This document shows, piece by piece, positions 5,554 through 17,809 of a stretch of DNA of 64,000 nucleotides. The position numbers and the translations under genes were made by a program. The stretch covers positions 108,457 through 172,456 of the forward strand of contig JACIWK010000001.1 in NCBI GenBank assembly GCA_014360985.1. The letters are read 5' to 3'. This DNA is from Candidatus Bipolaricaulota bacterium. GTDB taxonomy: Bacteria; Bipolaricaulota; Bipolaricaulia; Bipolaricaulales; Bipolaricaulaceae. A model generated the notes under the pieces. The model did not search any database. It saw nothing but the letters and a program-made list of their open reading frames with translations, and was not told the DNA's origin. Position 1 is the stretch's first letter. Each line of letters starts with the position of its first letter.

Positions 5554-6471
5554 TCAATCCGTTCCCGAGTCCCCCCCCTCGCCGCGGATCGAAGCTCCCC
5601 TTCCAATGAGGACGTCCTTCAATCGAACATCCCGCACCGTGGCTCCCTCGTCCACCACAACTCCATCCAACACCGCTCCCTCAATGCGCCCTGGCCCCAT
5701 GATCACAGACCGCGTAATGGTGGACCCCACCACCTGTGCCTCGGGATGGACCCAGCTTTCGCCGCCCGTGTACCGCAGGTGGGCCTCGATATAACTCTCA
5801 CGGCTCCCAATGTCAAACCACTCCCCCTCAAAGAGGAACGCCTCGACGGGATGCTGGAATAGGAGCCACTCCAGGAAGTATCCCGGGCTGTCCTGATGGC
5901 CAACGGCCTGGTCCACGAAAGCCCTGAATAGGGGAAGAATGGACCGCGGGAACAAGAAACAAGCTGCGCTCACCAGGGTCGAGCAGGGACGATCAGGCTT
6001 TTCCTGGAAGGAGACTACCCGGTTCCCCTCGACCACGGCCACCCCATAGCGCCGGCGAGCGAGGTCGGGACGCTTCAGATCGTAGAGGGCAACCAGGGTC
6101 TGTCCCTGGAACGCGCGCCGGAAGTCCGCCAGGCTCAAGCTCAGTAGGTTATCCCCTCCAATCACCAACAGGTCATCATCGAGATGCAGCCTGTCTACGA
6201 GATAGGCAAGGGCCCCCACCGATCCCAGCTTTTCCTCCTCGGAGGCCGATGGCTCCACGACCACGTCCACCGCCCGCCCCTTGGCCCACGCCGCGAACTG
6301 GGCCTCGAACCGCCGGTTCACAGCGAGGATCGGCCGCTCTGGTCCCGATAGCTGATCCATGATGTAGTCCAGGATCGGCCTCCCAACCACAGGAAGGAGC
6401 GGCTTGGGACGGTCGCGGGTGATCGGCCAGAGGCGCTTTCCATACCCACCGGCGAGGATCACCGTTCGCAT
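5554..6471 (-). CDS. Sugar-phosphate nucleotidyltransferase (NDP-sugar pyrophosphorylase)
   Basis: The 305-residue protein is of the GlmU/RmlA/ManC-like type. It starts MRTVILAGGYGKRLWPITRD, the nucleotide-binding GG-x-G-x-RL loop, followed by RPKPLLPVVGRPI. GGDNLL supplies the metal-binding aspartate. WFDIGSRESYIEAH is the usual end of the catalytic domain. The C-terminal 60 residues look like a short left-handed beta-helix (VHPEAQVVGSTI, VVDEGATVRDV). The substrate is not readable from sequence. Because mannosylglycerate synthase lies nearby, GDP-mannose formation is an attractive inference. The start overlaps the upstream glycosyltransferase by 13 nt. Confidence 0.8.
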   Translation of the reverse strand: MRTVILAGGYGKRLWPITRDRPKPLLPVVGRPILDYIMDQLSGPERPILAVNRRFEAQFAAWAKGRAVDVVVEPSASEEEKLGSVGALAYLVDRLHLDDDLLVIGGDNLLSLSLADFRRAFQGQTLVALYDLKRPDLARRRYGVAVVEGNRVVSFQEKPDRPCSTLVSAACFLFPRSILPLFRAFVDQAVGHQDSPGYFLEWLLFQHPVEAFLFEGEWFDIGSRESYIEAHLRYTGGESWVHPEAQVVGSTITRSVIMGPGRIEGAVLDGVVVDEGATVRDVRLKDVLIGRGASIRGEGGDSGTD

Positions 6472-7832
6472 GGTTCACGTCCTGTCCCTGGCCGGCCCTG
6501 GAGGGCTCCGCTCACCAGACGGTCCAGTTTCTCTTTGAGGATCTCGAGGGAGAAGCGCGCTTTGCCGAGGGCATAATTGTGCTCAACGAGCTTGCGGTAC
6601 CGATCCGGCCTGGAGAGGAGATCGGCAACCTCTTGCGCCGCACGGCGGAGGGTGGGCTCAGGCACCCGAGCAAGACCGTCCTCATCTCGCTCATAACTGT
6701 GCCCGAGCGATACGTACTGAAACCCTGCCGGAGCGATGTCGGACCGGAACACGGGATATTCATAGACCGTCATCGGCAATCTCGCCCATACCGCCTCCAG
6801 GAACTGGTTGCCCCAGCCTTCCTGGAGTGACGGGTAAGTGACGAAGTCCGCGCACAGGTACGTGTCCCAAAGCGAGAGGCACCCTGGGCGACGCGTGGAG
6901 GCCACCTGGTCCGACACGAACCGGGCGTCGACGCCCAGACGAGCGGCACGCTCCCAGAGAGCCTCGCAGTACCCTGGGTCCTCGACGAGGTTGGGGAGGA
7001 GAACCACCGGCCGCCCGGAGAAGCCGCCCCCCCGCTCGCGGACGCGGCGATCAAGGGCGCCTCGGTGTTCGGGCAACCCCAGCCGCGCCACAAGCTCGAG
7101 CGCGATCTCAATACCCTTGCGACGGACGATCCGGGTCGCCTGGAGGAATACCACGTCAGCCAAGGAAAGACCCATATGCTCAAGCAAAGCCCAGCGGGAC
7201 TCCCCTTGGGTCGGCGAAGAACGAAAGTCGAACACATTGGGAACCACGGTCGACGGAATGCCCCGTCGGCGCAACTCCTCGTGCGCGATGCGGTTGATCA
7301 CGATGTGCGTCACGCGGGGACTACGGGGAGGGAAGTACTTGTCCACCAGGTCTCGTACCCACGCGGCAGTGGGACTTCGGTACTCGTCCCGCTCCCAGTG
7401 GAAATCATGGTGGTGGGCCAGCACGGGTAGCTGGAGCGCCTCGACCGCTCGCCACACACCCACCGTGGCAGGCAGGTTGAGCGGTAGTCCCCACAGGTTA
7501 TGCACTACGAGGAGATCGAGGCCGAACACGGAGGCGAACTCCTTCACCTCTACCTCGATCCGCGCCGCCACGTCCTCAAGATGATCTTCCAGGTCCCTTT
7601 CGGTACGGTAGTCCGCCAGGCGCTCAAACGCGTTCCGACGGATTTGCAGGACCTCCGGATGATCTAGGGACATCTCAGGGACGACGAAGGCTTCTTCCCC
7701 CGTCCCGCAGCGGCCCGTGCACACAAACGTCTGATGCCCCAACTGGTGCAAGACCTGCCGACTCTTATCGATCTCGAGCGAGACCCCATCAATGTCCCCG
7801 GTACGGAAATGGCAGATCCCAATGCGCCCCAT
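6459..7832 (-). CDS. GT4-family glycosyltransferase
   Basis: The 457-residue GT-B enzyme starts GRIGICHFRTGDIDGVSLEI, a Rossmann strand with a nucleotide-loop glycine. The C-terminal half has the GT4 donor site YPSLQEGWGNQFLEAVW (E-x7-E type). VVFLQATRIVRRKGIE marks the start of the second Rossmann domain. It forms a two-gene operon with the nucleotidyltransferase and is divergent from the GntR-SBP regulator. Given the neighbouring genes it may make a glycosylglycerate-type compatible solute or a derivative such as mannosylglucosylglycerate. That is a guess from context, since donor and acceptor cannot be read. Confidence 0.75.
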   Translation of the reverse strand: MGRIGICHFRTGDIDGVSLEIDKSRQVLHQLGHQTFVCTGRCGTGEEAFVVPEMSLDHPEVLQIRRNAFERLADYRTERDLEDHLEDVAARIEVEVKEFASVFGLDLLVVHNLWGLPLNLPATVGVWRAVEALQLPVLAHHHDFHWERDEYRSPTAAWVRDLVDKYFPPRSPRVTHIVINRIAHEELRRRGIPSTVVPNVFDFRSSPTQGESRWALLEHMGLSLADVVFLQATRIVRRKGIEIALELVARLGLPEHRGALDRRVRERGGGFSGRPVVLLPNLVEDPGYCEALWERAARLGVDARFVSDQVASTRRPGCLSLWDTYLCADFVTYPSLQEGWGNQFLEAVWARLPMTVYEYPVFRSDIAPAGFQYVSLGHSYERDEDGLARVPEPTLRRAAQEVADLLSRPDRYRKLVEHNYALGKARFSLEILKEKLDRLVSGALQGRPGTGREPCER

Positions 7833-7841
7833 CTGACCAAG

Positions 7842-7847
7842 ATTATA
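7842..7847 (-). promoter_or_regulatory. -10 box TATAAT of the glycosyltransferase operon
   Basis: On the minus strand, TATAAT is separated by 9 nt from the ATG at 7832, and no ribosome site is present. This predicts a leaderless mRNA. Confidence 0.55.
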
Positions 7848-7934
7848 CGGTACCCGCCGGGGTGGAGGTATCTCCCCGAGGATGCAGGGCCGTGCCTTCT
7901 CACAGACTGCTCATCGTGCCAGGCAAACACCCCG

Positions 7935-7964
7935 TTGAGCATCCTTGGGCAGGGGGTCTATAAT
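7935..7964 (+). promoter_or_regulatory. Promoter of the GntR-SBP regulator
   Basis: TTGAGC (7935-7940), an 18-nt spacer and a perfect TATAAT (7959-7964). The ATG is 11 nt downstream of the -10 box with no Shine-Dalgarno sequence, so the transcript is leaderless or nearly so. Confidence 0.6.
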
Positions 7965-7975
7965 CAATCAGCAAG

Positions 7976-9430
7976 ATGAGAATGAACCTAGATAAGAAGA
8001 TCGCGGTCCCGCTCTACCAACAGCTGAAGCAAATCCTGGAGGAGGGGATTGAGCGCGGAGACTACCGTCCCGGAGACCGTATCCCCACTGAAGAGGAGCT
8101 CTGCCGGCAGTTCGGCGTGAGCCGGGTCACGGTGCGCCAAGCCCTCGGCGCACTGGCCAACGAGGGACTTGTTCTTCGCCACCAGGGAAGTGGAACGTTC
8201 GTCAACCACCGTCTTCCCGCGAAGGTGGTTCCCCTGCGGGCCGTGGTTCCTGAAGAACATTGGGTTCCATCACTTAGGAAGGCGTTCCAGGTTCACAGAA
8301 GGCAGGGACGGGGCGGGGTACTCCAGCCCGACATCAAGGTCCTGGGACGCCCCGAGCTCCACGCTAAGATCGTCTCCGCGGTGGGCAGAGGCGTCGCCCC
8401 TGATCTAGCTCTTATCGACTGGGTATGGCTCACCGAGTTCGCCGATCTTCACTACCTCGCACCCCTGGATGAGATCGACAAGAAGTGGGCGGCAGCGTTC
8501 AAGGCTGACCTGCTTCCACTGTTTGTGGAGAACAACTGTTACCGGGGCCACCTCTACGGGATGCAGCCCGAGGCCAATGTCTCGCTCGTTTGGTATCGAA
8601 GGGACTGGTTCGAGGTCGAGGGGCTCTCCCCTCCCCGCACCTGGGACGAGCTTGTGGAAGCCGCACAGCACTTCAAGGGGGAGGACGTCCAGCAGCGATA
8701 CGGATTGGGCCCGTTCCCGCTCGCGTTCCCGGGAGGCCCAAACGCGGGTGAGACAACCACCTACATCCTAAGCTCTCTCATCTGGTCGGTAGGAGAGGAG
8801 ATCTGCACTGAAGACAGGATCATTCTCGGCGAGGGGGCCCGGCAGGCCGTTGGGTTTCTCTATGATCTGGTCCACACGTACCGGCTGGCATCACCCACTG
8901 CATCCCGGTACGGGTTCAACGAAGTTCCGCTCCTGTTCGCCAGCGGGACAGTGGCGCTGGCGTTCGGGGGAAGCTACGAAAAGGCCTTCATCCAGCAGGT
9001 CTCAGGGTGGGATGACAAGGCATTCCGGCAGAGGGTGGGGTTCGTCCCCATCCCTGCCGGGCCGGGCGGGAGACCTGCTGCCACAGTAGGTGGAATGGTG
9101 TACGTCGTCTTCCGCCAGTCGCCCCACCCAGAGGCGGCTCTGGAAGTCCTAAAGATCCTTGCCAGCCCCTCTCTGATGATGGAGATGTGCCGTCTGATAG
9201 GGCGCAAACCGACCAGGGTCTCGGTAGTGCGCTCTCTCGATCAGGAACGAGACTGGTTCATCTATGAGACCAGCCGGTTGCTGGAGATAGCTCATGTGCG
9301 GCCGATCATCCCTCGCTATGCTCAGGTATCGACTCAGCTACAGGAGATGATCGCCCAAACGCTGGAGAGAAGACGGTCACCCACCGAAGCCATCGCTCAG
9401 GCCCAGGCGATCATAGATTGCTTGGCGTAG
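7976..9430 (+). CDS. GntR-family regulator fused to an extracellular solute-binding-protein domain
   Basis: The 484-residue protein has two parts. Residues about 1-75 are a GntR winged helix (VPLYQQLKQILEEGI, CRQFGVSRVTVRQALGALA, HQGSGTFV). Residues about 80-484 are a complete family-1 solute-binding-protein fold of the maltose/sugar type (SLVWYRRDWFEVEG, PRTWDELVEAAQHF, FASGTVALAFGGSYEKAF, VGFVPIPAGPGG). There is no signal peptide, so the binding domain works in the cytoplasm as effector domain. It precedes a sugar-type ABC importer and probably senses the ligand that the importer carries, repressing or activating it through the palindrome at 9489. The start could also be the in-frame ATG at 7982. 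Confidence 0.85.
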   Translation: MRMNLDKKIAVPLYQQLKQILEEGIERGDYRPGDRIPTEEELCRQFGVSRVTVRQALGALANEGLVLRHQGSGTFVNHRLPAKVVPLRAVVPEEHWVPSLRKAFQVHRRQGRGGVLQPDIKVLGRPELHAKIVSAVGRGVAPDLALIDWVWLTEFADLHYLAPLDEIDKKWAAAFKADLLPLFVENNCYRGHLYGMQPEANVSLVWYRRDWFEVEGLSPPRTWDELVEAAQHFKGEDVQQRYGLGPFPLAFPGGPNAGETTTYILSSLIWSVGEEICTEDRIILGEGARQAVGFLYDLVHTYRLASPTASRYGFNEVPLLFASGTVALAFGGSYEKAFIQQVSGWDDKAFRQRVGFVPIPAGPGGRPAATVGGMVYVVFRQSPHPEAALEVLKILASPSLMMEMCRLIGRKPTRVSVVRSLDQERDWFIYETSRLLEIAHVRPIIPRYAQVSTQLQEMIAQTLERRRSPTEAIAQAQAIIDCLA

Positions 9431-9460
9431 CCTCCTTGACTCACTTGCACCAAGAAGAAC

Positions 9461-9490
9461 TTGACAACGCGCTCCTTGCCATGCTAAAGT
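9461..9490 (+). promoter_or_regulatory. Promoter of the ABC importer operon
   Basis: A perfect TTGACA at 9461-9466 is followed after 18 nt by TAAAGT (9485-9490), preceded by TGC as an extended -10. The -10 abuts the 14-bp palindrome at 9489-9502. Confidence 0.5.
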
Positions 9491-9502
9491 TGTTATAACA
9501 AC
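9489..9502. promoter_or_regulatory. Perfect palindromic operator candidate
   Basis: GTTGTTATAACAAC is a perfect 14-bp inverted repeat overlapping the end of the -10 region and the expected transcription start of the importer operon. Its size and place fit a GntR dimer acting as repressor, and the obvious candidate is the upstream GntR-SBP protein. Confidence 0.5.
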
Positions 9503-9766
9503 TCTCATCGCTGTTGGAGGAGGTAGCGAGGCGCGGTCCTGCAGAGAGGCGCCAGTGTTCACAGGTCCAACCGCGCACCCTGCACACTTCCCAGACCATT
9601 GGTGGGAGTGGGGGAGCGTGGAGCCGGGTTGACACAAGGATCGGAGATCAAAACCTGCTAGGAGTTAGGAACAGGAAGGAGGTGAGCATCGGGAGGAAAA
9701 TGTGAAGGTCTTCCAACCGAGAAGTGTGGGATCACCACCAGCAGTTGAAGAAGGAGGGAAGTTGAA
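9503..9766 (+). other. 264-nt leader upstream of the binding-protein gene
   Basis: No convincing gene or known riboswitch is visible. The 63-codon ORF at 9514-9705 begins with TTG and looks spurious. A second TTGACA occurs near 9629 without a good -10. The leader ends in AAGAAGGAGGGAAG, the ribosome site for the binding-protein gene. Confidence 0.3.
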
Positions 9767-11038
9767 ATGAGGCGGCTAAGTGTTCTTCTTCTCGCAGGGT
9801 TGGTGGCAAGCGCGGCGACGGTGGTTGCCGCGTCAGACCTGACGTTCATGTCGACGCAGATGCGGCCCATAACGGAGGCAGAATGGGTCCGCACAGTGCT
9901 TCTTCCCCCGTTCACGACGGCAACCGGTATTCCCGTTGTCTTCCTCGGGGCAGAGGAACCGGAACTGACGAACCGAATCCTCGCTGAGTTCGAAGCTCGC
10001 CGCGGCTCACTCGATCTCGTCGGCGACCTCCACGGCAACTTCCTCGTCTACTACAACGCCCTGAAGGATCTAGGGGCCGAGTTAGTCCAGCTCGAAGCCC
10101 TGGGCGATCGGACCCTAGCGAGGTCGTTCGTGGAGTTGGGGCGCATCGGAGGTGCCCAAGTCTACATCCCCTGGATGCAGGCCACCTACGTCCTCGTCGC
10201 CAACAAGAAGGCGCTCCAGTATCTTCCTTCGTGGGCCGACCCCACGACCCTGACCTATGACCAGCTCTACCTTTGGGCCAGGAACATCTTCGAGGCGACC
10301 GGGGAGCAGAAGCTTGGGATCCCGGCCGGACCTCGCGCCCTACTCCACCGCTTTCTCCATGGCTACCTCTACCCCTCGTTTACTGGGGCCCAGGTCACGA
10401 AGTTCACCTCGCCGGAGGCAGTCCTGATGTGGGAGTACCTGAAGGACCTCTGGCAGTACGTGACACCGTCGGCACCTCTTCTCGACTCGATGGACACCGC
10501 GCTCCTGTCCGAAGAGGTGTGGATCGCGTGGGATCACACGGCGCGGGTGAAGACAGCGGTGATGGAGCGACCGGACGACTTCGTGGTGCTGCCGGCCCCC
10601 GCTGGGCCCAAGGGTCGCGGCGTGATCACGGTCCTCGCGGGGCTCGCCATCCCCCAGACGGCGCCCGATCCAGCGAGGGCTTACCAGCTGATCGAGTACC
10701 TCACACGCCCGTCCAGCCAGGTGGCAATCCTGGAGGGCGTAGGGTTCTTCCCGGTGGTCGCCGAGGCAGCCGGTGCAGTCCCCACGGGGGGGCTGAAGGT
10801 CCTTGCTGACGGCGTCGCAGTCCAGTCGGCTTCGCCGGACCTCCTCGTCTCCATCATCCCCGGCGGGCTCGGTGCCCGAGGTGGGGAGTTCAACAAGGTC
10901 TATCTGGACTCGTTCACCGAGATCGTGATCCGCGGCAGGCCCATCCAAGAGGTGCTCGCCCAGCAAGGGGCGCTCCTTGATGCGCTGTTCCGGGAGACGG
11001 GTGCGCCAACCCCGGTGCCCGACGTGTATCTCCCATAA
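9767..11038 (+). CDS. ABC importer solute-binding protein
   Basis: The 423-residue exported binding protein is of the family-1 (carbohydrate) type. The signal peptide MRRLSVLLLAGLVASAATVVAA has no lipobox cysteine, so it is probably a free periplasmic protein cleaved near VAA-SD. FTTATGIPVVFLGAE is the usual domain-1 pattern. LPAPAGPKGRGVITVLAGLAI and AYQLIEYLTRP are the typical domain-2 motifs. The ATG follows AAGGAGGG. It is the first gene of a binding protein-permease-permease-ATPase operon. The ligand is not readable; a glycosylglycerate or related sugar is inferred from the downstream mannosylglycerate synthase. Confidence 0.85.
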   Translation: MRRLSVLLLAGLVASAATVVAASDLTFMSTQMRPITEAEWVRTVLLPPFTTATGIPVVFLGAEEPELTNRILAEFEARRGSLDLVGDLHGNFLVYYNALKDLGAELVQLEALGDRTLARSFVELGRIGGAQVYIPWMQATYVLVANKKALQYLPSWADPTTLTYDQLYLWARNIFEATGEQKLGIPAGPRALLHRFLHGYLYPSFTGAQVTKFTSPEAVLMWEYLKDLWQYVTPSAPLLDSMDTALLSEEVWIAWDHTARVKTAVMERPDDFVVLPAPAGPKGRGVITVLAGLAIPQTAPDPARAYQLIEYLTRPSSQVAILEGVGFFPVVAEAAGAVPTGGLKVLADGVAVQSASPDLLVSIIPGGLGARGGEFNKVYLDSFTEIVIRGRPIQEVLAQQGALLDALFRETGAPTPVPDVYLP

Positions 11039-11045
11039 GAGGAGT

Positions 11046-11075
11046 GCCGGGCCGGGGGCATGCCCCCGGCCCGGC
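11046..11075. terminator. Perfect 15-bp hairpin between binding protein and permease genes
   Basis: GCCGGGCCGGGGGCA is followed at once by its exact reverse complement. No U-tract follows. Such intercistronic stem-loops after binding-protein genes protect the 5' message or reduce read-through, giving more binding protein than permease. Confidence 0.6.
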
Positions 11076-11082
11076 TTCATTC

Positions 11083-11958
11083 ATGCCCTGTACTCGCCCG
11101 CTGCGCGCGCTGGCCTCCGAGAAGGCCCTCCCCTATTGGTTAATCCTCCCCACGATCGTCTACGTGGCCGTGTTCTTCCTGGTCCCGGTAGTCCAGGCTC
11201 TCCTCTTGGCATTCCGTACCCAGGATGGGCAGTGGACGACGCGCTTCCTCATGCGCATGGTCCAGGACATTCAGTTTGGCAGCGCCCTCCGGTTCACGTT
11301 GCTCCTCCTGGCGATCGTTGTCCCCCTACAGCTGGTGACAGCCCTCTTCATCGCCCTCCTCGTCAATACGAGGTTTCGCGGATCGCGAACCTTCCTCTAC
11401 ATGTGTGCCATCCCACTCGGCATCTCCGACCTCGCCGCGGGACTGATCTGGTTCTCCCTCTTCACCCAGCATGGATACATCAACTCCTTCTTGTACGGTC
11501 TAGGGATCATCGAGAGGCCGATCTTCTTCCTTTCGGCGCAGAACACCGGATGGGTCTTAGGGTCAATCGTGCTCGCTGAGCACTGGCGTGCCACCGCGAT
11601 CGTGCTCGTAATCCTCGTTGCCGGCCTGCAGATGATCTCCCGTGACTACCTCGAGGCTGCGGAGGTGTTCGGGGCTCGCCCCTGGCAGAGGCTGTGGCAC
11701 GTCACGTTGCCTCTCCTCAAGCCCTCGCTACAGTCGGCCCTCATCATCCGAACGATCCTCGCCCTGCAGATGTTCGCCGTTGTCGTCGCGATGGGGGGGC
11801 GAATGGTCCCTGTGTTGGCGGGCGAAGCCTACTACTGGTACTACCTCTATCGCAATGCGAATGTGGCTTCCGCTTATGCCCTTCTTCTCATGGTCATCTC
11901 GGCCTTGCTCGCCTGGGGATACCTGCGGTTCCTCCGCCCGCGGGAGGTACATTCGTGA
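11083..11958 (+). CDS. ABC importer permease, MalF-like
   Basis: An inner-membrane permease with six predicted helices (YWLILPTIVYVAVFFLVPVV first). The cytoplasmic EAA loop is YLEAAEVFGARPWQRLWHVT followed by LPLLKPSL, the site that docks the ATPase. I prefer the ATG at 11083 (291 residues). The GTG at 11044 given by the ORF track would translate through the strong intercistronic hairpin. No good ribosome site precedes 11083, so the start is uncertain. The stop overlaps the next permease (GTGA). Confidence 0.85.
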   Translation: MPCTRPLRALASEKALPYWLILPTIVYVAVFFLVPVVQALLLAFRTQDGQWTTRFLMRMVQDIQFGSALRFTLLLLAIVVPLQLVTALFIALLVNTRFRGSRTFLYMCAIPLGISDLAAGLIWFSLFTQHGYINSFLYGLGIIERPIFFLSAQNTGWVLGSIVLAEHWRATAIVLVILVAGLQMISRDYLEAAEVFGARPWQRLWHVTLPLLKPSLQSALIIRTILALQMFAVVVAMGGRMVPVLAGEAYYWYYLYRNANVASAYALLLMVISALLAWGYLRFLRPREVHS

Positions 11959-12776
11959 CGTTCCGTCAGCTCCAGCGCCGGTTTCTCCTGTACATGGTGG
12001 TGGTGGTAATCGCACTGTGGGTCCTCGTTCCGCTGGTCCTCATCGCCCTCGCGGCGTTCACACCTCGGCTCGAGCTGTACCGATGGCCACGGACGGTACT
12101 TCCCAGCGCTTTCTCCACGGCAACGATGGCGTTCTTCCTTCGATCGTACGGTACCCTCACCTCGCTGACGAACAGCGCGCTGGTGGCGCTACTGACCTTG
12201 GGGATGACCCTTGCCCTCGGCGCACCTGCTGGATACGCCGTGGCGCGGTACGTCTTCCGCGGTCGAGAAGCATTCCGCATCGGCATCCTCATGACCAGGA
12301 TGTTTCCCACGTCGTTGCTAGCTATCCCTCTCATCGTCACGTTCATCCGGTGGCAGCTCTACGATACGCTCATCGGTGTGGCGTTCATCCACACCGCGAT
12401 GGCTCTTCCTTTTGCTGTCCTCATTACCTCAGGCATTTTCTCGGGGGTTCCCAAGGAATTGGAGGAGGCAGCGATGACCTTGGGGTGCAGCCGATTGGGG
12501 GCGTTCGTGAGGGTGGCACTCCCGTTGGCCCTTCCAGGGCTGGCCGCAGCCGCCATGTTCACCTTTGTGATCTCCTGGAACGAGGTGTTCGCTGCAGCTA
12601 TTCTCACCGTCCGGAACCGGACCCTTCCTGCCCAGGTGCTGACATCGCTCGAGGTTGCTCCTCTCGACTTTCGGTTCGCGGGGGGGTTTTTCATGATCAT
12701 CCCCGCCTTGATCTTCATGGCCCTGGCCCGGAGGTATCTGTTCCAGATGTGGGGCGGTGCGATCTCAGAGAGGTGA
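11955..12776 (+). CDS. ABC importer permease, MalG-like
   Basis: The 273-residue partner permease starts FRQLQRRFLLYMVVVVIALW and has six predicted helices. Its EAA loop is ELEEAAMTLGCSRLGAFVRV followed by ALPLALPGL. The GTG start at 11955 overlaps the preceding stop by 4 nt and follows GGGAGGT at good spacing. The ORF-track start at 11694 lies inside the first permease and was rejected. With the previous gene it forms the heterodimeric membrane channel. Confidence 0.88.
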   Translation: MTFRQLQRRFLLYMVVVVIALWVLVPLVLIALAAFTPRLELYRWPRTVLPSAFSTATMAFFLRSYGTLTSLTNSALVALLTLGMTLALGAPAGYAVARYVFRGREAFRIGILMTRMFPTSLLAIPLIVTFIRWQLYDTLIGVAFIHTAMALPFAVLITSGIFSGVPKELEEAAMTLGCSRLGAFVRVALPLALPGLAAAAMFTFVISWNEVFAAAILTVRNRTLPAQVLTSLEVAPLDFRFAGGFFMIIPALIFMALARRYLFQMWGGAISER

Positions 12777-12779
12777 GCG

Positions 12780-13901
12780 GTGGCCGAGATTAGGCTCGAA
12801 CAAGTACGGAAGACGTTTGGCCGGGTGGTGGCTGTCCGCGACGTCGACTTGACGATCGAGGATGGGGAGTTCCTCGTCCTCCTCGGACCATCCGGCTGTG
12901 GGAAGACGACCACACTGCGGTGCATCGCCGGCCTCGAGCGGGCCAACAGCGGGAGAATCTTCATCGGCCGCCGTGACGTGACGGGACTGCCTCCTGCTCG
13001 GCGGGGGATCGCGATGGTCTTCCAGAGCTATGCCGTCTTCCCACACATGACCGTGGCACAGAACATCGGGTTCGGGCTCCGCATGCGCCACGTCCCCAGA
13101 CGACAGATCCAGAAAGATGTCGAGGAGGCAGCGGCGCTCCTTCGGATCGACGAACTCCTCCAGCGATACCCTGCCCAGCTCTCCGGCGGGCAGCGACAAC
13201 GGGTGGCCGTAGCGCGCGCCATCGTGATGAAACCCCAGGTCTTGCTCATGGATGAGCCGCTCTCCAACCTCGATGCCCTTCTCCGCCTTCAGATGCGCGC
13301 CGAGTTGAAACGACTCCATCGCGAAATCGGGACGACCACCGTGTACGTCACCCACGACCAGGTGGAGGCCCTTTCGCTTGGGGATCGCATCGCGGTGATG
13401 ATGGATGGGACCATCGTGCAGCTCGATCACCCCAGCGTTGTCTACGACAAGCCGGCATCAACGTTTGTCGCCGGGTTCATCGGCACCCCGCCAATGAACT
13501 TCCTCGAGGCCACCGTCGCTGCTCGCGACGAGAGCGTCGAGCTCGTGGTGGGAGACTTCACCCTGCTCGTACCGGCGATGTGGACGGATCAACTGAAAGA
13601 GAGGGCGGGCCAGACCGTGATCGTGGGCATCAGGGCTGAGAACATCACCGTCCATCACGGGCCGGTGCCGGGGTCTCTTGCCGCCACGGTGCTGGTGTCG
13701 GAGCCGCTGGGTTCTCAGCAGCTGCTGACGGTCCAGGTCGGCCAGGATGTCCTCAAGGTCGCCACCGCCCCCGAGCCGCTGTTGGCAGCAGGGCAGATGG
13801 TGGGGTTGACCCTCGTAGGTCAGAAGCTCCGCCTATTCGACAAGGAGACGGGGAAGGCCCTCCCTGTGCCAATTCCCCCGCCGTCCGAGGGAGGGACGTG
13901 A
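12780..13901 (+). CDS. ABC importer ATPase, MalK/UgpC type
   Basis: The 373-residue ATPase energises the importer. Walker A is GPSGCGKTT, the signature is LSGGQRQR, Walker B is [13 protein letters not shown] and the switch histidine is in VYVTHDQ. The C-terminal 130 residues are the TOBE/OB regulatory region of the MalK class ([15 protein letters not shown]). The GTG start follows AGAGGTGAG. Having the ATPase inside the operon suggests it is dedicated to this importer rather than shared. Its stop overlaps the mannosylglycerate synthase start. Confidence 0.92.
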
Positions 13902-15049
13902 TGAGTGCCGTAGTGTTCCCGTTCAAGCGCGAGGATCCCGACGTCCTGCTGAAGAACGTTCGCACAGCTTTGGCCCACCCGCGAGTGCGGCGCGTCGTGT
14001 GCGTAGGGGCGGAGGAGGATGAATGTTTCGCAACCGTGGCCCGCGCTGCCCCCAACATCGCTCGTTCGAGCGGCAAGGAAGTGGTGGTCATCGTTCAGGA
14101 GAGGATCGGCACCAAGAGGCCCGGAAAGGGCGACGGGATGAACAGCGCCCTCCGGTACCTCCTGACCAACACAGAGCACGACCGGATCCACTTCTACGAC
14201 GCCGACATCCTCTCCTTCTCCGAGGAGTGGATCGCGAAGGCGGAGGAAGCCGCGGACCAGGGGTACCAGGTTGTACGCCACTACTTCCCGCGGGCGAGCA
14301 CGGACGCGATGATCACCTGGTTCATCACCCGAACAGGGTTCGCCATCCTGTTTCCACGGTCCGAACTCCCGCGGATCGAGCAACCGTTGGGGGGCGAGCT
14401 TTTGGTGACGAGGAAAGTGGCGGAAGCGCTTCTCGCGGATCCGCGGGTCCAGGCCCAGAGCGACTGGGGAATCGACACGCTGTACACGTTCGCCACCGTC
14501 GCTCAGGGCTTCAGCATCTACGAGACGTACATGGGCGTGGGGAAGGTCCACAAGCTCTACGGTTCCCTGGGCGACCTACGCACGATGCTGATCGAGTGCT
14601 TCGAGGCCCTCTCGTCGCTGGCCGGGGCATCGGTCGCCGGAACCACATTGCACCACGTGGAGTACCAGGGCCCGGTGTCGGAGGCCATCAAGGCCAAGGT
14701 TGGGTACGACGTCGACGCGACGCTGGCCCTGCTCGCTGAGGGTTGGACGGAGCGTCAGGCGGAGCTCCTCGACCACTTCCCGCCTGAGGTCCGGGATGGG
14801 CTAAACCCATCGCGGCGGATCCCCCGGGTGGGGTGCATGGACGACAAAGCCTGGTACGACACGTATCGCGTTCTCCTTCGGGAATACCAGAGCGAGAATC
14901 CCGAGTGGCAAGATCTCCTGTTCCGACTTTGGGCAGCCCGGGTCCTGGCGTACACCTTCTCGGTGGCGCTCCGGGGGTACGACCTGGCGATGCACCACCT
15001 GCACCAGATGGTGGAGTGCTATTGCCGGCGCGCGGCGGGGGGGTCCTGA
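13901..15049 (+). CDS. mgs: Mannosylglycerate synthase (GT78)
   Basis: The 382-residue enzyme transfers mannose from GDP-mannose to D-glycerate in one step, giving the compatible solute 2-O-mannosylglycerate. From memory it closely matches the Rhodothermus marinus enzyme. Shared blocks include VVFPFKREDPDVLLKNVR, RPGKGDGMNSALRY, IHFYDADI (the DxD-like metal site), VRHYFPRASTDAMITW, EQPLGGELL and SDWGIDTLYTF. I chose the ATG at 13901, which overlaps the ATPase stop and gives MSAVVFPFK. The adjacent GTG would add one residue. The gene is translationally coupled to the importer, so uptake and synthesis share one transcript. Its 3' end overlaps the convergent oxidoreductase by 31 bp. Confidence 0.93.
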   Translation: MSAVVFPFKREDPDVLLKNVRTALAHPRVRRVVCVGAEEDECFATVARAAPNIARSSGKEVVVIVQERIGTKRPGKGDGMNSALRYLLTNTEHDRIHFYDADILSFSEEWIAKAEEAADQGYQVVRHYFPRASTDAMITWFITRTGFAILFPRSELPRIEQPLGGELLVTRKVAEALLADPRVQAQSDWGIDTLYTFATVAQGFSIYETYMGVGKVHKLYGSLGDLRTMLIECFEALSSLAGASVAGTTLHHVEYQGPVSEAIKAKVGYDVDATLALLAEGWTERQAELLDHFPPEVRDGLNPSRRIPRVGCMDDKAWYDTYRVLLREYQSENPEWQDLLFRLWAARVLAYTFSVALRGYDLAMHHLHQMVECYCRRAAGGS

Positions 15050-16323
15050 CGAGGGGTGAGAGGCATCCAGTCCCCCAAGTTCACCACCTTCCCGCTGATC
15101 CGAGCCTCCTCGGCCGCGAGGGCCCAGAGGTGACTGGCCAAGGACGCATCCAGGGAAGTAAGGGGGGGTGGAACAGGTCCGACTCGTGCCTCACGAACCC
15201 TCTTCAAGAAGGCCACCATCAGCCCATCATCGCCCCCCGCGTGCCCGCCACAAGCAGGGGTGCGGAATCGCCGTGGGGGAAGGCGGGAGAACGGGAGGAC
15301 GGAGACCTCACCCCGGCCGAGGTGCCCCCGGATCTCCCCGTGGGTGCCCATCAGCTTAACGGTGCGGGTGTTTTCGGCGGTGAAGGCGGAGACGACCAAC
15401 GTGGCCACCACGCCTCTCTCGAACTCCATCACCACGACCTGCTGGTCGGGGACGTCATTGTCACATCGGAAGACACAGCGGCTGTAGGGACTCTGGGCCA
15501 GCACCGATGCCCGCGCGGCCGGATCAGGGGAGATCACCGACCCAGGCCATCCCCTGTCCTCGCCGAACCGGCGCAGGTAGATCTCTACCGCTGAGTAGGG
15601 ACAAGCGGGCTCGTGTGGGCAGGGGTCGGTGCACCGTTCCGTGGCGGCGGGGGGGGCGTTCTCCGGTCGGAAGAAGGTCAGGCTTCCCACCGACCGCACG
15701 GACTGGCAGTTGCTCCCGACGAACCAACCGAGGAGGTCCAAGTCGTGACAGGCCTTGGCCAGGACCAGCGGGCAGGCGCGGTCAGCCCGTCGCCAGTGCC
15801 CGCGAACGTAGGAGTGGGCGAAGTGCCAGTACCCGATGTTCTCGACGTGGATCACGGACACGAGCTGGCCAACCGCCCCCTGATCCAGCAGATCCTTGAC
15901 CGTGCGGAAGAACGGCGTGTACCGGAGCACGTGGGCCACCGTCACCGATCCGGAGGAACGGTAGGCGGCTTCCCGGAGGCGAAGGAGGTCCTCCCTGGAC
16001 GTGGCGATTGGCTTCTCGAGGAGGACGTGGTAGCCGCGTTCCAGGGCAGCGAGGGCGGGCTCGGCGTGGAGGTTGTCTGGTGTGGCCACGATGAGCGCTT
16101 CTGCCAACTGGCCACGGGACAGGAGGTCGTCCCAGGAGGGGAACAGCCTGGTGGAGGGCACTCCGTGGGCGCGGCCGGCGGCAGCGCGGCGCGCGGGGTT
16201 CGGCTCCGCCACGGCCACAACCCTTGCTGAACGGGGGTGGGCGAGAATATAGCGCCCGTAGACATCATCTCCCCTTTGTCCCGCGCCCACGAGAGCCACC
16301 GTCACCGGACCAGCGCGTCCCAT
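15019..16323 (-). CDS. Gfo/Idh/MocA-family oxidoreductase
   Basis: The 434-residue NAD(P)-dependent sugar-type dehydrogenase has a Rossmann start TVALVGAGQRGDDVYGRYI and the family EKPIATS motif (lysine in HVLLEKPIATSREDL). A later segment has EPACPYSAVEIYLRR with several cysteines. The ATG at 16323 gives the right N terminus; the ORF-track start at 17130 runs through the divergent kinase gene and was rejected. It is convergent with mgs and divergent from glycerate kinase. The substrate is unknown. A role in oxidising sugars or glycerate-type compounds of this island is inference. Confidence 0.85.
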   Translation of the reverse strand: MGRAGPVTVALVGAGQRGDDVYGRYILAHPRSARVVAVAEPNPARRAAAGRAHGVPSTRLFPSWDDLLSRGQLAEALIVATPDNLHAEPALAALERGYHVLLEKPIATSREDLLRLREAAYRSSGSVTVAHVLRYTPFFRTVKDLLDQGAVGQLVSVIHVENIGYWHFAHSYVRGHWRRADRACPLVLAKACHDLDLLGWFVGSNCQSVRSVGSLTFFRPENAPPAATERCTDPCPHEPACPYSAVEIYLRRFGEDRGWPGSVISPDPAARASVLAQSPYSRCVFRCDNDVPDQQVVVMEFERGVVATLVVSAFTAENTRTVKLMGTHGEIRGHLGRGEVSVLPFSRLPPRRFRTPACGGHAGGDDGLMVAFLKRVREARVGPVPPPLTSLDASLASHLWALAAEEARISGKVVNLGDWMPLTPRQDPPAARRQ

Positions 16324-16354
16324 GTTCTCCCTTGCCCGTCTCCTCCCCTGCGGG

Positions 16355-16360
16355 AGTATA
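16355..16360 (-). promoter_or_regulatory. -10 box TATACT of the oxidoreductase gene
   Basis: On the minus strand TATACT lies 31 nt upstream of the ATG at 16323, with purine-rich GGGGAGGAG between. It sits in the 154-bp divergent region shared with glycerate kinase. Confidence 0.4.
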
Positions 16361-16477
16361 CCCACCTGCCCATCGCACGCCGCTCGTGAGAGGGGGCTGT
16401 CCGTCAGTTCAAGGACGGGGGTCCCTGGTGGCCCCTGGCGCAGGCGGACCGCGGGAACGATCATCGCAAGGACGATG

Positions 16478-17809
16478 ATGGAGGCTGAGGAATTGCGGCA
16501 AGCCGTGACCCAGATCGTGCAGGAAGCCATCGCTTCCGTGAACCCTGGTGTGTGTGTGAAGCGCGTCCTCGCCAAGGCAGGGGAGCAGGTACGGGTGGGG
16601 GCCCGCGGCTTCCCTGCGCGACGAGTGGTCGTGGTCGGTTGTGGGAAGGCGGCGGGGACCATGGCCCGGGCCATCGAAGCCGTTCTGGGGGAGAGGGTTG
16701 AAGCCGGGCTTGTGGTGACGGCAGACGGGTACGGGGTGGAGTGCGAGCGGATCGAGGTGGTGGAGGCGTCCCATCCGGTGCCCGACAGCCGTGGAGTAGA
16801 AGCAGCCCACCGCATCGCGGCCCTAGTCGATGCGGCCGAGGAAGGTGATCTGGTTCTGGTGGTCATTTCGGGTGGGGGCTCCGCCCTCCTCACCCTCCCT
16901 GCCGACGGCCTCACCTTGGACCACCTCCGGGAGACCAACGAGCTCTTGCTGCGCTCCGGGGCCCCGATCCAGGCGGTGAACGCTGTCCGGAAGCACCTCG
17001 ACCAGCTGAAGGGGGGCCAGCTCGCGCGCCGCGCCGCCCCAGCCCAGGTGGTATCCCTTATCCTGTCCGATGTCCCCGGGGACCCCCTCCACGTCATTGC
17101 CTCCGGCCCCACGGTTCCTGATCCGACCACGTTCCTCGATGCGCACCGCGTTCTTCAGAACTACCGGCTGTGGGAGATAGTCCCAGAGGCGGTCCGCGTC
17201 CGCATTGCTCAGGGGCTAGCGGGAGAGGCCCCCGAGACGCCAAAGCCGGGCGATCCGCTGTTTCACACGGTGCACAACGCAATTGTGGGCAGCGGGGTCA
17301 CCGCGGCCGAGGCCGCCCTGAAGGCGGGAGAGAGGTCAGGGTTCACAGGATTGATCCTTACCACCGAGCTGTGTGGAGAGGCCCGGGAGGTGGGGCAGGT
17401 CGTCGCTTCTCTGGCACGTGAGGTGGTGCGACGGGAGCGCCCCGTTCCCCGTCCTGGACTTCTCATCTTTGCCGGGGAGACCACGGTAACTGTGACGGGG
17501 AGCGGCAGAGGGGGGAGGAACCAGGAGGCCGCTCTGGCCGCTGCGTTGGGAATCGCTGAATTCAAGGATGTGGTCGTGTGCTTCGTGGGAACCGACGGGC
17601 GGGATGGCCCTACCGATGCTGCAGGTGGACTGGTGGATGGGGGGTCTATGGGACGGATGGTCGCGGGCGGGGTGGACCCCCGAGCAGCACTGCTCAACAA
17701 CGATGCCTACGCCGCCCTCAGCGCCTCGGGAGACCTCGTGATCACGGGACCCACAGGGACCAATGTCGCCGATCTGTGCCTAGTAGCAGTGGGAGCCAGG
17801 TCCCCGTAG
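16478..17809 (+). CDS. gck: Glycerate 2-kinase (MOFRL family)
   Basis: The 443-residue kinase phosphorylates D-glycerate to 2-phosphoglycerate. The N-terminal GckA domain shows VVVGCGKAAGTMARAIE, ASHPVPDSRGVEAA, the GGGSALL nucleotide loop and AVNAVRKHLDQLKGG. The C-terminal MOFRL domain has GGRNQEAALAAALGI and GTDGRDGPTDAAG. The ATG at 16478 (or 16475) follows AAGGA. The longer ORF to 16322 is not supported. Glycerate is the acceptor for mannosylglycerate synthase, so this enzyme either drains glycerate into glycolysis or recycles it after solute breakdown. Confidence 0.92.
   Translation: MEAEELRQAVTQIVQEAIASVNPGVCVKRVLAKAGEQVRVGARGFPARRVVVVGCGKAAGTMARAIEAVLGERVEAGLVVTADGYGVECERIEVVEASHPVPDSRGVEAAHRIAALVDAAEEGDLVLVVISGGGSALLTLPADGLTLDHLRETNELLLRSGAPIQAVNAVRKHLDQLKGGQLARRAAPAQVVSLILSDVPGDPLHVIASGPTVPDPTTFLDAHRVLQNYRLWEIVPEAVRVRIAQGLAGEAPETPKPGDPLFHTVHNAIVGSGVTAAEAALKAGERSGFTGLILTTELCGEAREVGQVVASLAREVVRRERPVPRPGLLIFAGETTVTVTGSGRGGRNQEAALAAALGIAEFKDVVVCFVGTDGRDGPTDAAGGLVDGGSMGRMVAGGVDPRAALLNNDAYAALSASGDLVITGPTGTNVADLCLVAVGARSP

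Follow-up and report, generated by a model that had tools for sequence, protein, structure and literature searches.

The fusion gene and its product

The window analysed here, a 64,000-nucleotide stretch of a Candidatus Bipolaricaulota genome, carries at 7976..9430 on the forward strand an ATG-initiated gene for a 484-amino-acid regulator in which a GntR domain is fused to a solute-binding protein (SBP), as delineated by open reading frame calling, Pfam, AlphaFold2 and comparison with relatives. Residues 13-76 (8012..8203, +) form a winged helix-turn-helix (wHTH) DNA-binding domain of the HutC/YvoA-like kind (Pfam GntR, PF00392, E 1.6e-23, 82.6 bits against a cut-off of 27). Residues 84-484 (8225..9427, +) form a complete type-II periplasmic-binding-protein (PBP) effector domain resembling MalE3 and the trehalose/maltose-binding protein (TMBP) according to Pfam, the structural model and Foldseek. 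Within it, SBP_bac_1 is matched at residues 126-399 (E 2.5e-28, 100.4 bits against a cut-off of 26) and SBP_bac_8 at residues 125-420 (E 1.8e-18). The single-chain AlphaFold2 model, computed from a 27-row alignment of relatives, has a mean pLDDT of 92.4 and a pTM of 0.80 and depicts a wHTH with a wing reaching residue 76, followed without a long linker by an entire SBP fold whose first strand spans residues 84-91. Foldseek aligned this model over about 410 columns with T. maritima MalE3 and T. litoralis TMBP (TMt 0.84-0.87) and also with the sulfoquinovosyl-glycerol-binding SmoF, the three matches together spanning TMt 0.81-0.87. The ligands of the nearest solved relatives are trehalose, maltose, sucrose and sulfoquinovosyl glycerol, and among the solved structures searched no PDB chain contains both domains. 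An earlier note on this DNA had described a GntR repressor fused to a full sugar-binding-protein domain; Pfam, the model and Foldseek bear out the architecture, while the start of the second domain moves from residue 80 to about residue 84.

The same note had remarked on the missing signal peptide, and here it was right, as the N-terminus is the wHTH and holds no hydrophobic stretch. The maximum 13-residue hydropathy within the first 90 amino acids is 1.04, compared with 2.37 at residue 4 of the SBP encoded at 9767, an obvious signal sequence. Because a signal peptide is lacking, a cytoplasmic location of the fusion protein is supported.

Gene neighbourhood

Downstream of the fusion gene and on the same strand lies an importer operon, comprising an SBP with a signal peptide (9767..11038, from Pfam and hydropathy), ABC permease A (11044..11958, Pfam), ABC permease B (11955..12776, from Pfam and an open reading frame that mechanically begins at 11694, so that the start is approximate), a MalK/UgpC-type ATPase (12780..13901, profile matches) and, as last gene, a mannosylglycerate synthase with MGS_GT and MGS_C domains (13898..15049, Pfam). 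A GT4 enzyme related to mannosylglucosylglycerate synthase (MggS) is encoded divergently from the regulator (6459..7832, -; 348 bits against a cut-off of 640), next to a sugar-1-phosphate nucleotidyltransferase (5554..6471, -; profile matches). A glycerate 2-kinase-like gene of uncertain start (16322..17809, +; 234 bits against a cut-off of 550) is linked as a separate unit. Across 5554-17809, mannosylglycerate synthase thus closes the importer operon, with the MggS-like enzyme, the nucleotidyltransferase and the glycerate-kinase-like gene close by, and synthesis and uptake of glycosylglycerates appear to be linked at this locus, judging from gene content.

Similar contexts recur in relatives. 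Genomes of family f1 carry a module in which a nucleotidyltransferase and an MggS-like glycosyltransferase sit beside an SBP, two permeases, MalK and mannosylglycerate synthase, and the fusion gene is found either between the two halves or convergent at the module end. Outside f1, importer genes accompany the fusion together with MggS-like enzymes, an MGH1-like glycoside hydrolase (GH), GH130 and glycerate kinase. Also found there are a GH38 enzyme whose best match is mannosylglycerate hydrolase (538 bits against a cut-off of 1138), and a sucrose-phosphorylase-family (GH13_18-like) enzyme. The latter could be a glucosylglycerate phosphorylase, a family known from earlier work (PMC11009771). 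Glycerate glycosides are the common theme that these annotations suggest, with homologies below the family cut-offs that leave the exact substrates unfixed. The earlier note had proposed a glycosylglycerate or sugar as the imported compound, and the mannosylglycerate synthase, MggS-like, mannosylglycerate-hydrolase-like and glycerate-kinase genes found across relatives strengthen the glycosylglycerate context.

Conservation and origin of the fusion

Near-full-length, in-frame fusions were found in 22 of 100 Bipolaricaulota genomes (26 copies, 42-90% identical to the query over its length). These genomes belong to families f1 and f9; in f2 and f8 the copies are partial or broken. The alignment of relatives contains 43 invariant columns spread across both domains, and the GntR/SBP junction is conserved without a linker. 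The earlier note had named a frameshift or assembly join between two genes in relatives as the finding that would speak against a true fusion. Two relatives do have copies broken by stops or a frameshift (L045, 8766-10216 in G039:C36; L044, 1075-2155 in G066:C54). However, with 26 near-full-length in-frame copies in 22 separately assembled genomes, a conserved linkerless junction and a confident single-chain model, an artefactual joining of two genes is so improbable that it can be set aside.

Beyond the phylum, no fusion was detected in 297 Bacteroidota genomes at E<=1e-40, and among the best matches listed from 72,556 plasmid records none covers the GntR part. Within this sampling, the fusion is best described as an old, conserved feature of Bipolaricaulota, though not necessarily one confined to that phylum. 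A search of the open-access literature found no described case of a GntR-SBP fusion. Domain databases may, however, list such architectures for some Firmicutes, and the fusion is therefore not called categorically new.

The origin of the fused domain was addressed with a tree that combined 25 fused domains with 26 free SBPs drawn from the same genomes, including the SBP of the neighbouring importer. The fused domains separate from every free SBP sampled (support 100/99), and since they are monophyletic, a single fusion event would suffice for the sample. The earlier note had suggested a domain borrowed from an exported binding protein, and for the neighbouring one this is not supported: the SBP at 9767 falls outside the fused clade, matches the fused domain with 27.7 bits across 57 amino acids in BLASTP and reaches a probability of 18% in profile-profile comparison, which together argue against its derivation from that SBP. 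The AlphaFold2 model of the SBP at 9767 was poor (pLDDT 52, from 6 sequences) and was left out of the comparisons.

The importers behind the fusion have SBPs of at least three unrelated types, namely the type at 9767, a 447-residue type in f9 and a type shared by L053 and L054, which indicates that importers were replaced while the regulator was retained. It could be speculated, with chances that we judge about even, that the protein represents a separate GntR subfamily, ancestral in Bipolaricaulota, in which an entire importer-type SBP was internalised once as a glycosylglycerate sensor and kept that role as the importer's own SBPs were swapped for unrelated ones. In another genome (G041; L077, 8671-10747), the genes for a free SBP and permeases come immediately after that of a normal GntR-FCD regulator, an arrangement that could give rise to such a fusion.

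A candidate operator at the importer promoter

The gap between the regulator stop and the importer start contains a promoter-like site, TTGACA-18-TAAAGT (9461..9490, +), identified from the sequence and with the TTGACA conserved in relatives. Overlapping its -10 element is a perfect 16-bp palindrome, AGTTGTTATAACAACT (9488..9503, +), which covers the -10 and start region and is proposed as operator on the grounds of symmetry and conservation. A search of 100 genomes of the phylum for exact copies of the inner 14-mer yielded one in this genome and one in G008; both belong to the window's genus, and no other genome searched carries it. A de novo scan of relatives recovered, in the corresponding gap of about 15 genomes, the family consensus ATTTGTTATAACAAAT or sequences close to it. 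In 12 loci the palindrome follows a TTGACA at 26-27 bp, a spacing at which it covers the -10 and start site. The consensus fits the GT-N4-AC rule of HutC-type regulators and the palindromic pattern NyGTNxACNy described for operators of the GntR superfamily (PMC4494728).

Allowing up to two mismatches, the 16-mer turns up in 16 of the 20 genomes that have a fusion of clade A (defined below), compared with 4 of the 80 others (Fisher p 1.4e-11, a value that overstates independence because the genomes are related). The four clade-A carriers without it comprise the two with broken copies, one in which the contig ends (G073) and one with a divergent protein (G032). In G090 the gene for an importer-type SBP is preceded by a perfect palindrome although no fusion gene was found on that contig, and the position of the palindrome hence reflects more than inherited adjacency. 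The overlap of the candidate operator with the importer promoter favours the earlier view of the fusion protein as regulator of the adjacent importer.

The regulator itself has a promoter-like site, TTGAGC-18-TATAAT (7935..7964, +; promoter scan), with the ATG 11 nt past the -10, which predicts a near-leaderless mRNA. No operator was found at this promoter (7935-7978), and there is hence no sign of autoregulation. Several clade-B relatives have a TATATT at a similarly short distance before the start codon. In G039 and G066, the genomes with broken fusion genes, the operator is absent at up to two mismatches; decay of regulator and operator may go together there.

Specificity residue 40 and two clades

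Residue 40, a Glu in this protein, corresponds to Arg35 of FadR and Asn53 of AraR, that is, to position 28 in the numbering of PMC4494728, where Arg is reported to prefer G/C in the TKGT box. The fusion proteins divide into clade A, with E, M, Y, F or H at this residue and TTGT half-sites, and clade B (L065, L068, L069, L071, L072 and others), with Arg. In clade-B loci no TTGT palindrome was found by scanning; instead, AATGGT...CCATT dyads with TGGT-like half-sites occupy the same promoter position, recognised after the fact by alignment and imperfect in most members, although the L065 core, TGGTCTGGACCA, has perfect 5-bp arms. The type of residue 40 and the type of half-site would fit a protein-DNA match, with clade A versus clade B counting as one evolutionary contrast. 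Within clade A, L060 (ATTTGGTATAACAAAT) and L063 (ATTTGGTATACCAAAT) show single TTGT-to-TGGT-like changes, and both proteins have Tyr at residue 40.

Proposed mechanism and alternative explanations

Taken from sequence and model, the fusion protein is probably a cytoplasmic one-component repressor of the importer operon that is released by a glycosylglycerate or a related sugar. The GntR/HutC-type wHTH, presumably as a dimer, would bind the palindrome at 9488-9503 and thereby block RNA polymerase at the -10 and start of the promoter that drives the genes for the SBP, the two permeases, the MalK-type ATPase and mannosylglycerate synthase. The C-terminal half, a Venus-flytrap sugar-binding domain related to TMBP and held in the cytoplasm, would close on a ligand that is either taken up or produced in the cell, the DNA-binding domains would move and the operator would be released. 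The ligand would most likely be a glycosylglycerate (mannosyl- or glucosylglycerate) or the sugar part of one, and it is plausible that the fused domain senses the same ligand as the importer. Mannosylglycerate synthase within the operon could, on the other hand, mean osmotic rather than substrate control.

The reading as a repressor rests on the overlap of the operator with the -10 and start region at a fixed spacing to TTGACA. A site over this region is the position of a steric repressor, whereas an activator site would be expected upstream of the -35. An activator or dual regulator of the importer operon is therefore unlikely, even if a title cited by PMC13060122 calls SgrR, which likewise combines an HTH with a solute-binding domain, a transcriptional activator.

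Regarding the ligand, E93, D148, Y334 and K336 are invariant, and R442 is present in 26 of 27 rows, the remaining row ending before it. In the alignment, E93, D148 and Y334 line up with the sugar cleft of TMBP. Such conservation of candidate cleft residues is what a functional binding site would show, possibly one for an acidic ligand, which the invariant K336 would suit. Several typical carbohydrate-contact positions differ from TMBP in the alignments, as might be expected if the domain had lost ligand binding and served as a dimerisation scaffold or bound another protein, e.g., the importer ATPase. Yet the likely cleft residues are strongly conserved across 42-57% identity and the two-lobe fold is intact, making such a loss improbable. 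A somewhat better case, though still the lesser possibility, is that the same repressor answers to another effector, either a sugar phosphate or a simple sugar or oligosaccharide such as mannose, mannobiose or a trehalose-like compound, with the solute genes as only one output. The ligands of the nearest solved relatives and the GH130 mannobiose-phosphorylase-like enzymes in several linked operons point in this direction. Against it, the glycerate-specific genes (for mannosylglycerate synthase, the mannosylglycerate-hydrolase-like GH38, the MGH1-like GH and glycerate kinase) are repeatedly found next to the fusion, across different families and with different importers, and the Lys at 336 would favour an acidic effector.

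Relation to known regulators

By its effector domain the fusion protein fits none of the FadR, HutC, MocR and AraR definitions. Pfam detected neither a UTRA domain (HutC) nor a class I aminotransferase domain (MocR) in it, the all-helical FCD domain of FadR is absent from a model that displays a mixed alpha/beta PBP fold, and the PBP domain is SBP_bac_1 of type II, not the type I LacI/GalR domain of AraR. Likewise, Pfam did not find the SgrR-type HTH with SBP_bac_5, and the protein lacks the export signal or lipoprotein anchor of an SBP_bac_1 importer subunit.

The closest system in concept is AraR of Bacillus subtilis, which also joins a GntR wHTH to a periplasmic-binding-protein-like sugar sensor and controls sugar uptake. 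The AraR operator, ATTTGTACGTACAAAT, is close to the candidate operator found here. The HutC subfamily (YvoA/NagR, DasR, MngR) shares the most similar DNA-binding domain and the GT-N4-AC operator, and its member MngR governs mannosylglycerate use; unlike these proteins, the fusion has a 400-residue solute-binding protein in place of UTRA. AraR further resembles the fusion in having a non-Arg residue, Asn53, at the equivalent of residue 40 (PMC4494728), but its sensor is a LacI/GalR-like type I PBP, whereas the domain here is of type II and homologous to the binding proteins of ABC importers. The earlier note had listed only FadR, HutC and MocR types as GntR effector domains, a list that omits AraR with its GntR domain on a LacI/GalR-type domain (PMC4494728). 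SgrR and DsvR are also cytoplasmic HTH regulators with a C-terminal solute-binding-protein domain (SBP_bac_5; PMC13060122), but differ in HTH family, SBP family and regulon. Finally, LysR-type regulators have a type-II PBP-like effector domain (PMC5882156), which is the short LysR substrate domain behind another wHTH and not a full importer-type SBP.

GntR proteins are among the largest families of bacterial regulators, and the fusion would bring them a further class of sensor, in which a whole ABC-importer binding domain acts as a natural allosteric switch. Designers of biosensors based on solute-binding proteins may find a natural template in it. For a phylum with few cultured members, compatible-solute uptake gains a predicted regulator and operator together with a candidate effector, and the two clades (Arg/TGGT versus non-Arg/TTGT) could serve as a natural experiment on DNA recognition by GntR proteins.

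Two fusion copies, L038 (7980-9437 in G089:C8) and L067 (12053-13138 in G090:C127), lie downstream of a gene for a GT4-domain protein of about 820 amino acids, with neither importer nor operator. The copy in G089 is the second in that genome, and these GT4-adjacent copies possibly represent a paralogue with another regulon.
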